NCBI RefSeq assembly: GCF_900110225.1
Contig: NZ_FOCW01000001.1
Location: 310,001 to 374,000, forward strand
Length of the DNA: 64,000 nucleotides
Direction of reading: 5' to 3'
Source of the DNA: Allobrachymonas denitrificans DSM 15123
GTDB taxonomy: Bacteria > Pseudomonadota > Gammaproteobacteria > Burkholderiales > Burkholderiaceae_C
The notes below the pieces were generated by a model, which worked only from the letters and a program-made list of their open reading frames with translations, was not told the origin of the DNA and made no database searches. The translations under genes were made by a program, and so were the position numbers. Shown one piece after another: positions 58,438-61,136 of this stretch. The first letter of the stretch is position 1. The number at the start of each line of letters is the position of its first letter.

Positions 58438-59745
58438 TTACGCGATACGCAGCGCCATTTCCTTGATGACGGTATGCACCACCGCCCTCAGGCAACGTGC
58501 TTCGCCTGCGAGGGTGGCGCTGAGGTGTGGCTGTGCTGCTGCCAGCCGCGCATTTTCCGCAACGGTTTCGTCGTAGAGACGCACCGCTGCTGGCAGCATG
58601 CGTGCGCGCATGCTTTCCAGGATGCGTTCGGCCGTTCCCCGCGCCAGGCCCAGGGCACCACCTGCCTGCAGCAGTACTTCCCGGGTGATGCCGGCAAAGT
58701 GGTGAACGCCCAGTACCGGCCAGGCCAGACGGGTATGCGTGGGCCAGCCCGGCTTGTCAAAGGCGGTGGAGTCGTAGACTGCAACGCTCAGCAAGTCATA
58801 CAGTGGCGCCAGTTGTACGCCTTCATGCGACACTAGGAAGCTGAGGTTTTTCAGGTGGGCATCGCTGTTGCCGACCAGCATGTTGAACGCCAGCCAGCCA
58901 AACAGGCGCGAGCGTGCGACGGCCGGGCTGCGGCAGGCATTGGCTAGGGCAGCCAGGCTGTCCATGCTGCCCTGGCTGTACTTGAAGCTGCGATCCAGCC
59001 CGAGAAGCTGGCAGGCATCGATCACATGGCGGCGTTGCCATCCCTGACTGTCTTCCAGCCTGTCAAACCGCTCGATTACGTAGACCGGCGAAGGCACGTA
59101 ACGCCGATGGACGCGTGGCACATCCAGCCCAAGCCGACCCGCCAGGCGCATCACGAACCATTCGTTGATGACCGAATGGGGGTAGTCTTCGTCGGGATGA
59201 TCCGGCTTGAGGATGTGAGTGGATGGCGTGGCCCCGGCGGGTTCGAGCAGCGCGTCATGCTGCATCACCACTGCCAGCTTGTGCTGCGCTCCCGCCAGTG
59301 ACATGCGCTTGATGGCGCCGCGCGTCAGCGGAGCCTTGGGGAGCAGGCGGATGCGTGCTTCAAGAGCAGCGTCCGGCAAGGGGCGCAGGGGAGTCGCGAG
59401 CGGGGGAGGGGCCTCCGGTGGCAGCAGGGTCAGGGAGCCAGCGGACTCCGCGCCATACCAGGCGAGCAGGCCAAAGGCGTCTGCAGCTTCTATCCTGGCG
59501 TCACTGGCCAGCAGCAGGCGCTGCCCTTCCTCGGGAAGCAGATTGTCAAAATACCACTGCACCGGACGCAGGCTGGCACCGTCCACTACCCGCCCGGCGG
59601 TGAGTGGAAGGTGCGGACTGAGGGGATAGCGTTGCGGGTGCTCCAGCCAGCTACTTGCATACTGGAAACCCCAGAGCCCGCTCTCCTCCTGCAAGTTGCC
59701 CACATCGATCTGGTTGATGAAAGCGCGCAGGACCCGGCTGCTCAT
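58438..59745 (-). CDS. hipA: HipA-type serine/threonine kinase toxin
   Basis: 435 residues from ATG 59745, overlapping hipB by 4 bases. The N-terminal HipA domain (FINQIDVGNLQEESGLWGF, YFDNLLPEEG) precedes the kinase: the phosphate loop MSLAGAQHKLAVVM, ATP-site HILKPDHPD, the catalytic loop VGNSDAHLKNLSF and the metal site LAPLYDLLS. HipA kinases phosphorylate targets such as a tRNA synthetase to arrest growth. All catalytic residues I can check are present. Confidence 0.93.
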   Translation of the reverse strand: MSSRVLRAFINQIDVGNLQEESGLWGFQYASSWLEHPQRYPLSPHLPLTAGRVVDGASLRPVQWYFDNLLPEEGQRLLLASDARIEAADAFGLLAWYGAESAGSLTLLPPEAPPPLATPLRPLPDAALEARIRLLPKAPLTRGAIKRMSLAGAQHKLAVVMQHDALLEPAGATPSTHILKPDHPDEDYPHSVINEWFVMRLAGRLGLDVPRVHRRYVPSPVYVIERFDRLEDSQGWQRRHVIDACQLLGLDRSFKYSQGSMDSLAALANACRSPAVARSRLFGWLAFNMLVGNSDAHLKNLSFLVSHEGVQLAPLYDLLSVAVYDSTAFDKPGWPTHTRLAWPVLGVHHFAGITREVLLQAGGALGLARGTAERILESMRARMLPAAVRLYDETVAENARLAAAQPHLSATLAGEARCLRAVVHTVIKEMALRIA

Positions 59746-60008
59746 GGCGTGCTTTCGTCGGGGCTGGCATGAGGCAGATGCCTGGCGACCTGTTCGGGTA
59801 CATCGACGATCAGGCGAATGCCCAGGCCTTCGAGGACCTGAAACAGCTTGCCCCAATGTACCGAATCGGCGCCGCGTTCGACCTTGCCGAGGAAGTTCTC
59901 ACTGACGCCCATGCTGCCAGCAGCATCATCCTGCCGGATGCCTTGGGCCTTGCGACTGGCGCGCACTACCTTGCCGATGGCGGCTGCGTTGGAAATCGGT
60001 ATTTGCAT
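59742..60008 (-). CDS. hipB: HipB-type HTH antitoxin
   Basis: 88 residues from ATG 60008. The XRE-type helix-turn-helix is IGKVVRASRKAQGIRQDDAAGSMGVSENFLGKVERG (split around QDDAA). The C-terminal half (WGKLFQVLEGLGIRLIVDVP) adds the HipB dimer strand. GAGAGG lies upstream. It binds HipA and should repress the operon through three operators just upstream. Confidence 0.92.
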   Translation of the reverse strand: MQIPISNAAAIGKVVRASRKAQGIRQDDAAGSMGVSENFLGKVERGADSVHWGKLFQVLEGLGIRLIVDVPEQVARHLPHASPDESTP

Positions 60009-60011
60009 GGT

Positions 60012-60136
60012 CAATCCTCTCGATCATGAGGATTCTGAAGTGTTTGAAGTGCTCTTGCAAGAAAATCCTTACGGTCGAAAGGATTTTTTGATGGGAATGA
60101 AGTCCAGCCCGAAAATCCTTGTGATTATGTGGATTT
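60012..60136 (-). promoter_or_regulatory. hipBA promoter with three phased operators
   Basis: Three inverted repeats share the form (A)ATCCT-N8-AGGAT(T): O1 60012-60035 (CAATCCTC-N8-GAGGATTC), O2 60062-60087 (AAAATCCTT-N8-AAGGATTTT, perfect) and O3 60113-60136 (AAATCCTT-N8-GTGGATTT). Their centres are 51 and 50 bases apart. The promoter on the minus strand is TTGCAA (60060-60055), 17 bases, CAGAAT (60037-60032), so O1 covers the -10 and start site and O2 abuts the -35. Confidence 0.8.
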
Positions 60137-60413
60137 CATCGGTGCGCCGCCATGTGAATTTGTGCATCCGTGGATGCATGGAGCTGCCCGCAAGCGCCCC
60201 TAACCGGAAGTTGCAATGGATGCATCCGGCCCTCCACAAATCGGGCTAACCCCATCCTGCGCACGGCCGTACGTGCTATACCATCGCATCCGGGAGAACT
60301 GTTACATCTCGCATGTTGCATCTGCACATGCGGGGCAGCAATCCCGGGCGTCATCCCGGCACAACGTGAACGGATCGGGATAAACCCGGAATTTACCGGC
60401 TGACGCCCATAAA
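60137..60413. other. Gap between hip operators and the TetR promoter
   Basis: No gene is evident. It has lower GC than its surroundings at both ends and contains an interrupted repeat GGGGCAGCAATCCCGGGCGTCATCCCGG region (around 60331-60360) with no clear role. The short ORFs here lack ribosome binding sites and family resemblance. Confidence 0.4.
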
Positions 60414-60444
60414 TAGCACGACCGTTCGCATTCTTTGTTATAGT
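60414..60444 (+). promoter_or_regulatory. TetR promoter and operator
   Basis: TAGCACGACCGTTCGCATT (60414-60432) matches the motif before the FadL-type gene at 7275. A -10-like TATAGT lies at 60439-60444, only 8 bases before the ATG at 60453, so the mRNA may be leaderless or nearly so. No good -35 is seen; the operator occupies its place. Confidence 0.55.
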
Positions 60445-60452
60445 CTCCAGCC

Positions 60453-61136
60453 ATGTCCAACCCCAAGCACCTTTCTTCGCAAACCGCTGACAGCGCCGAC
60501 GGCGCCAAGCGACGCGTCCTGCAAAAAGGTCAGCAGACCCGTGCGGTGCTGCTGGATGCAGGCCTGTCGCTGGCCAGCCAGCTCGGCTTGGAGGGCATCA
60601 GCATTGGTGCCCTTGCGGAAATGGTGGGCATGAGCAAGTCCGGCGTGTTTGCCCATTTCGGCTCGCGCGAGGACCTGCAGATTGCCATCGTGGACGAGTA
60701 CTACCGCCGTTTCGAGCATGAGGTCTTCCAGCCTGCGCTGGAAGTGCCGCGCGGCCTGCCGCGCGTGCGCGCCATGTTCGAGAACTGGATCCGCCGCGTC
60801 ACCGAGGAGGAAGTGCAGTCCGGCTGCATCTTCATCAGCGGTGCGGTGGAATTCGATGACCGGGAGGGTCCGGTACATGACGCGCTGCAGCGCGCCATCA
60901 ATACGTGGCTCACCGCCCTGCAGCGCGCCGTCGAGCAGGCCAAGCAGGAGGGCCATCTGCGCCCCGATGCCGATGCCCTGCAGATGGTGTTCGAAGTGCA
61001 CGGACTGATCCTGTCCGTGCACTACGAAGCCCGCTTCCTGCAGAACCCGGCCGCCATCGACCGCATCCATCGCGGCTTTGAACGAATTGTGGCGTACTAC
61101 GCCTCGCCCGCTGCTGCCACTGGCGGCGGCACCTGA
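60453..61136 (+). CDS. TetR/AcrR-family regulator of fatty-acid oxidation genes
   Basis: 227 residues. A 25-residue leader precedes the HTH (TRAVLLDAGLSLASQLG, ISIGALAEMVGMSKSGVFAHF, with SREDLQIAIVDEY after it). The C-terminal domain (YRRFEHEVFQPALEVPRG, IRRVTEEEVQSGCIFISGA) is that of TetR_C-type ligand binders. The next genes encode an acyl-CoA dehydrogenase and a 3-hydroxyacyl-CoA dehydrogenase, so control of beta-oxidation by an acyl-CoA ligand is likely, as for betaproteobacterial FadP-type regulators. No ribosome binding site precedes the ATG. Confidence 0.88.
   Translation: MSNPKHLSSQTADSADGAKRRVLQKGQQTRAVLLDAGLSLASQLGLEGISIGALAEMVGMSKSGVFAHFGSREDLQIAIVDEYYRRFEHEVFQPALEVPRGLPRVRAMFENWIRRVTEEEVQSGCIFISGAVEFDDREGPVHDALQRAINTWLTALQRAVEQAKQEGHLRPDADALQMVFEVHGLILSVHYEARFLQNPAAIDRIHRGFERIVAYYASPAAATGGGT

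Follow-up and report, generated by a model that had tools for sequence, protein, structure and literature searches.

What holds three nearly identical palindromes at almost equal distances in front of a hipBA operon, and is the distance itself under selection? The hipBA genes are a bacterial dormancy toxin-antitoxin gene pair, and one such pair lies in the 64,000 nucleotides of the Allobrachymonas denitrificans DSM 15123 genome analysed here (the whole stretch is referred to as the window). A sequence-only reading of this DNA had proposed that three HipB operators (O1, O2 and O3) precede hipB, that their even spacing puts them on one face of the helix and that they carry a looped or stacked HipAB repression complex comparable to that of enterobacteria. 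To our knowledge, the silencing of HipA by adjacent HipAB complexes on a multi-operator promoter has been worked out for E. coli-type spacing.

Results

The gene pair and its operators

In the window, hipB lies directly upstream of hipA and the two overlap by 4 bases (Table 1). The predicted HipB matches HTH_31 above and HTH_3 below the cut-off, and its match to NCBIfam couple_hipB (E 2e-15) is likewise below the cut-off of that model. Couple_hipA and HipA_C both match the predicted HipA above cut-off and within a single protein, and this fusion of N-domain and C-domain rules out a tripartite HipBST system at this locus. The window HipA has equivalents of the E. coli residues S150, D309 and D332, as do all aligned HipAs covering the position (the alignment comprises the HipAs with gene sequence available). 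By gene order, coupling, domains and kinase residues, the predicted pair qualifies as a hipBA type II toxin-antitoxin module. Its closest solved proteins by sequence are those of PDB 4pu3-4pu8 (E 4e-6 for HipB, 1.5e-36 for HipA), which we take to be HipB and HipA of Shewanella oneidensis.

Table 1. Predicted genes, operators and promoter elements of the hipBA locus (positions in the window)
Feature	Position	Strand	Basis
hipA, HipA-family kinase toxin, 435 aa (predicted)	58438..59745	-	Couple_hipA and HipA_C domains
hipB, helix-turn-helix antitoxin/repressor, 88 aa (predicted)	59742..60008	-	domain matches; relatives share the same ATG start
O1, putative palindromic HipB operator	60012..60035 (core 60014-60033)		matrix score 31.3 bits
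Candidate Shine-Dalgarno GAGAGG, inside O1	60016..60021	-	read from sequence
Candidate -10 hexamer CAGAAT, overlapping O1	60032..60037	-	read from sequence; A-rich -10 entering O1 in relatives
Candidate -35 hexamer TTGCAA	60055..60060	-	read from sequence; TTGCCA-like element at equal offset in relatives
O2, putative palindromic HipB operator	60063..60086 (core 60065-60084)		matrix score 31.4 bits
O3, putative palindromic HipB operator	60113..60136 (core 60115-60134)		matrix score 28.2 bits; one arm mismatch

The three near-palindromes upstream of hipB follow the pattern AATCCT-N10-AGGATT with a core of ATCC-N12-GGAT, and a repeat search returned them as one family of 22-nt copies. Both this search and the core positions confirm that the centres are 51 and 50 bp apart, as are the starts. 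That the palindromic sites are real is borne out by a symmetric 24-bp matrix built from 221 operators of relatives (consensus AAATCCTCACGATCGTGAGGATTT), which gives them 28.2-31.4 bits against 4.4 for the best other site in the 64 kb. Likewise, the exact pattern ATCCT-N10-WGGAT occurs at 6 places in the 2.71-Mb genome, three of which are O1-O3. The design ATCCT-N8-AGGAT that had been ascribed to them must be corrected: the arms are 10 bases apart, and the N8 pattern with up to two mismatches is found 15 times in the window but never at O1-O3. The common arms ATCCT and AGGAT hold for O1 and O2, but O3 has TGGAT in place of AGGAT on one arm. An RNA element was rejected as the identity of the region, 59900-60500 giving no Rfam match at the gathering threshold, and a plasmid search with the intergenic DNA gave no match. 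Between O3 and a divergent TetR-family gene (60453-61136) lie two copies of TGGATGCAT, 46 bp apart (60164-60229) and inside short palindromes such as GCATCCGTGGATGC, which are possible candidate sites of the divergent regulator.

The candidate -35 and -10 hexamers, read from the sequence with a spacer of 17, are absent from the list of a stricter promoter scan. In 76 relatives, O2 is followed by a TTGCCA-like element and an A-rich -10 extends into O1, both at the same offsets as in the window. The hexamer positions together with these conserved elements place O1 over the candidate -10, the presumed start and the ribosome site, and the end of O2 2-4 bp from the candidate -35 on its upstream side, with O3 further upstream, in agreement with the sequence-only reading.

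Spacing in close relatives

A profile from five HipBs yielded 80 related hipBA loci (53-87% identity on the best segment), mostly of Betaproteobacteria and also of Pseudomonas, Halopseudomonas, Cellvibrio and a few Alphaproteobacteria such as Stappia. A scan of their upstream DNA (at most 300 bp) for ATCC-N12-GGAT that tolerated one mismatch gave adjacent gaps of 49 (8), 50 (124) or 51 bp (19) in 151 of 163 cases, and the remaining 12 gaps involve extra weak sites. The even spacing of the window is thus kept in related hip loci at 49-51 bp: O1 and O2 are present in 76 of the 80, the O1 counterpart lying at about -15 from the hipB start, and O3 in 71 of those 76. Four loci were left out of the positional analysis, namely L068, L076 and L088, whose sites are degenerate, and L111, whose array is 21 bp further from the called start and keeps 50/50/50. 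L084, L109 and L111 have a possible fourth operator, one further 50-bp step upstream.

The sequence between the sites is conserved unequally. The O1-O2 spacer is more alike between loci (43.2% against 25.2%) because the promoter sits in it, whereas the O2-O3 spacer is near random (28.7% identity against 26.5% when shuffled) and the sequence is random over the 30 bp past O3 (26.2% against 25.3%). The O2-O3 spacer measures 30 bp in 59 loci, 29 bp in 5 and 31 bp in 7. This retention of length with loss of sequence is the main argument for selection on spacing, and the comparison suggests that a centre-to-centre distance of 50 (49-51) bp is being selected.

Spacing in distant relatives

One locus with a HipB 44% identical (L011) carries AT-rich palindromes at -125, -75 and -25, that is, a 50/50 spacing of sites quite unlike the window operators in sequence. 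A search independent of any assumed operator looked for two similar 20-bp palindromes at a distance of 22-90 bp within at most 900 bp of DNA preceding the HipA N-domain, and a pair was considered significant if it scored above all 40 Markov shuffles of its own locus. Sample 1 comprised 130 loci among the PF13657 matches listed (369 genomes of the class searched, 128 with a match) and sample 2 comprised 89 loci among the matches listed (398 genomes of the phylum searched, 123 with a match). The samples have no locus in common, but L215, L332, L342 and L343 are the genes L131, L133, L130 and L138 of a 38-locus HipB-like set (see below).

A significant pair was found in 72 of the 130 and 51 of the 89 HipA loci; the other 58 and 38 had no significant array. 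Best-pair distances in samples 1 and 2 were 26-29 bp (11 and 13 loci), 39-41 (6 and 2), 49-51 (22 and 17), 52-57 (11 and 10) and 70-72 (2 and 1), with the rest of sample 1 elsewhere; 10 of its 11 pairs at 52-57 bp are twice a 27 or 28 step. Control segments from the window and from locus flanks were significant in 8 of 186 cases, with none at 49-51. The excess at 49-51 over flat spacing has a binomial p of about 2e-13 in sample 1 and 3e-11 in sample 2, a calculation that treats non-independent loci as independent. On this sequence comparison, the window locus belongs to a 50-bp class of hip promoters, defined in this analysis, that is widespread. The same genome holds a second hipB-hipA pair (L217, contig C12, about 1284801-1285428), upstream of which the motif-free search found no significant palindrome pair and the matrix no match to the window operator.

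Spacing classes, HipB lineage and helical phase

When the arrays of sample 1 were extended (71 loci; L200, significant but without a HipB frame found, was left out), they formed regular series of 27/27 or 28/28, 31/3x/31, 40/4x/40, 49-50/50 and 71/71-72. Class labels were taken from the smallest gap of each array, except for L185 (27/23), which was labelled by hand. The best pair is at 48-51 in 23 extended arrays; in 20 of these, two or more adjacent gaps measure 48-51. The other main class, at 27-28 bp, includes E. coli (28/39/28). Four-site arrays made of two pairs (31/3x/31, 40/4x/40) occur in L210, L234, L242, L250 and L251, comparable to the E. coli pairing at other distances. N-domain frames of only 103 aa are found in L192, which is one of the two 71-bp loci, and in its mate L204; on this account both look like HipBST, and their 71-bp step beside HipS-like frames is in line with the Legionella HipBST layout. 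A C-terminal Trp in HipB is found in 15 of 22 members of the 28-bp class, 10 of 12 of the 40-bp class, 4 of 21 of the 50-bp class and 5 of 16 of the rest.

On a HipB tree of 74 rows, which is poorly resolved with few columns and many open forks, the 50-bp label changes 4 times against 19.9 in shuffles, and all 23 rows bearing it fall into one 34-row part whose split has a weak support of 54. Since the label is clustered in this way and the operators of the same rows vary widely in sequence, the step appears to follow the HipB lineage more than the motif.

At 10.5 bp per turn, 50 bp correspond to 4.76 turns, so that each step falls about 86 degrees short of completing a turn, and the 101 bp from O1 to O3 correspond to 9.62 turns, 137 degrees short. 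The placement of O1-O3 on the same face is therefore doubtful; as the modal spacing in relatives is 50 and not 52-53, the conserved feature is not same-face stacking on straight B-DNA. Over 32 HipB clusters, which share ancestry, the helical-phase statistic R is 0.64 at 10.5 bp, equal or higher at 10.6-11 and 0.60 at 11.5, and coarser clustering leaves only 7 groups. For steps of 27-28, 39-41, 50 and 71, the residual phase is 0.57-0.90 turn, which, with a statistic that is only suggestive, may point to one shared contact geometry that differs in reach. Tentatively, and with some reserve, one may generalise that hip promoters use a few quantised steps (about 27-28, 40, 50 and 71 bp) of roughly one helical phase, each marking a different higher-order HipA-HipB assembly, and that descent within the HipB/HipA lineage fixes the step but leaves the operator sequence free to vary. 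In that case spacing rather than motif would be the conserved part of the hip promoter code.

Link to HipA

Among the 38 loci of the HipB-like set, from which close HipB relatives and duplicates were left out, a 49-51 array is found in 16 of 30 with hipA nearby and in 0 of 8 without, a comparison that is small and phylogenetically uneven. At the HipA positions that correspond to P86 and D88 of E. coli, the classes differ: P or A (19/22) and D or S (20/22) in the 28-bp class, D (13/16) and A (14/16) in the 50-bp class, and A (6/6) and mostly G (4/6) in the clade of the window. P86L and D88N are reported as high-persistence HipA variants (PMC12321266), and several mutations of this kind map to a HipA subdomain at the N terminus that forms dimers as DNA is bound (PMC6581861). 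For G22S, the authors suggest a disturbed dimerisation of HipA in operator complexes (PMC7029023; for this dimerisation see also PMC6581861). The class-specific residues would fit an altered contact surface for an altered geometry, but common descent could be enough by itself to produce this pattern. At the position of E. coli HipA D291, the window HipA clade has Ala in all six relatives aligned (L036, L041, L070, L083, L100, L113), the residue of the hipA7 high-persistence allele, and other HipAs of the 50-bp class have D (7) or Q (7) of 16.

Discussion

We consider it probable that the array consists of the HipB autorepression operators of the hipBA operon and that its spacing is selected, likeliest through contacts between neighbouring HipB2-HipA2 complexes. 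HipB dimers, we infer, would bind the three 24-bp palindromes; occupancy of O1 would block the -10, the start and the ribosome site, that of O2 would abut the -35, and O3 would be filled further upstream. Neighbouring complexes could touch via HipA, by analogy with its dimerisation at the E. coli promoter, or via bent DNA, and HipA would bridge them as a co-repressor, so that repression is proposed to be cooperative and dependent on the HipA:HipB ratio. Given the non-integral turns, the bound DNA might be bent or overtwisted, or the complexes might meet at an angle; the looped or stacked HipAB complex of the sequence-only reading is a conjecture. Against this explanation as a whole speak the non-integral turns themselves, the lack of significant arrays at many HipA loci and at L217, the degenerate sites of L068, L076 and L088, and the other spacing of E. 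coli-type promoters. For Legionella HipBST, the authors describe bands suggesting intermediate occupancy rather than cooperativity (PMC10653801).

The spacing could alternatively reflect nothing but the room around the promoter, with HipB binding three independent sites. Indeed, O1 on the -10 and O2 behind the -35 tie their distance to the promoter, conserved elements of which lie between them (43% identity), and Legionella HipBST is described as binding its three sites separately (PMC10653801). However, the O2-O3 distance is equally strict, and promoter geometry cannot explain a spacer of constant length and near-random sequence; moreover, L011 keeps its 50/50 with the array 10 bp further from the start codon, and L111 its even series as well. 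Promoter geometry as the sole cause is therefore rejected, and independent binding appears unlikely. Even less probable is that HipB acts alone, operator bends giving a phased, curved DNA path that aids repression or HipB-HipB cooperativity in the absence of HipA contacts: E. coli HipB is reported to bend its operator by about 70 degrees (PMC3920265) and to bind cooperatively (PMC3376134), but the 49-51 array was found only beside hipA, in the small and uneven comparison given above.

With 101 bp between the outer two of the three sites, a DNA loop from O1 to O3 with O2 as an auxiliary might also be considered, a very improbable arrangement in view of the 9.62 turns between them, of an O2 conserved as well as O3 or better, and of five of the 76 relatives that lack a recognisable O3. 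We give practically no credence to the even spacing being a functionless relic of the tandem duplication of a 50-bp unit. Two 18-nt stretches adjoining O1 and O2 in the window do match at 72%, but in 71 relatives spacers within a locus are no more alike than between loci (29.5% against 28.5%), on which ground this origin is rejected, and a length kept through sequence drift needs selection.

E. coli HipB represses hipBA via four cooperatively bound sites (PMC3376134, PMC3920265), and the K-12 promoter sequence has four TATCC-N8-GGATA sites at 28/39/28 bp. The window resembles this promoter in that a series of palindromic HipB sites covers the hipB promoter and extends upstream of it, in TCC/GGA-type arms and in the order hipB-hipA. 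The enterobacterial parallel drawn earlier thus stands for the multi-operator promoter but not for the sites, as the arms (CC to GG) are 8 bases apart in E. coli and 12 in the window, and four sites at 28/39/28 bp are set against three at 51/50. With up to one mismatch, TATCC-N8-GGATA has 0 matches in the 64-kb window, and in view of this and of the missing pairing at about 28 bp an E. coli-type array is rejected there.

Multi-operator hip promoters are already known from other systems. Legionella HipBST has three evenly spaced operators before hipB, one of them overlapping the promoter, with a spacing kept across species; its 18-nt operators are separated by 53-bp gaps, or 71 bp centre-to-centre if the gaps are edge to edge (PMC10653801). 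It differs from the window in its motif and in being tripartite, whereas the window HipA carries its own N-domain. Caulobacter hipBA1 and hipBA2 share with the window the number of three operator sites, with inverted repeats that recur at intervals, and their authors regard the layout as consistent with the E. coli complex (PMC8545095, PMC7029023). HipB of Acidovorax citrulli binds its own promoter, in a report whose text contains none of the terms operator, palindrome and inverted repeat (PMC11990009). The literature searched, mostly open-access texts, yielded no description of a 50-bp hipBA class, which does not by itself prove novelty. Beside the E. coli type, there is thus a second class, widespread and fixed in its 50-bp step but variable in its operators; it offers a direct test of how general contacts between complexes are, makes spacing-swap experiments interpretable and cautions against modelling hipBA autoregulation on E. 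coli.
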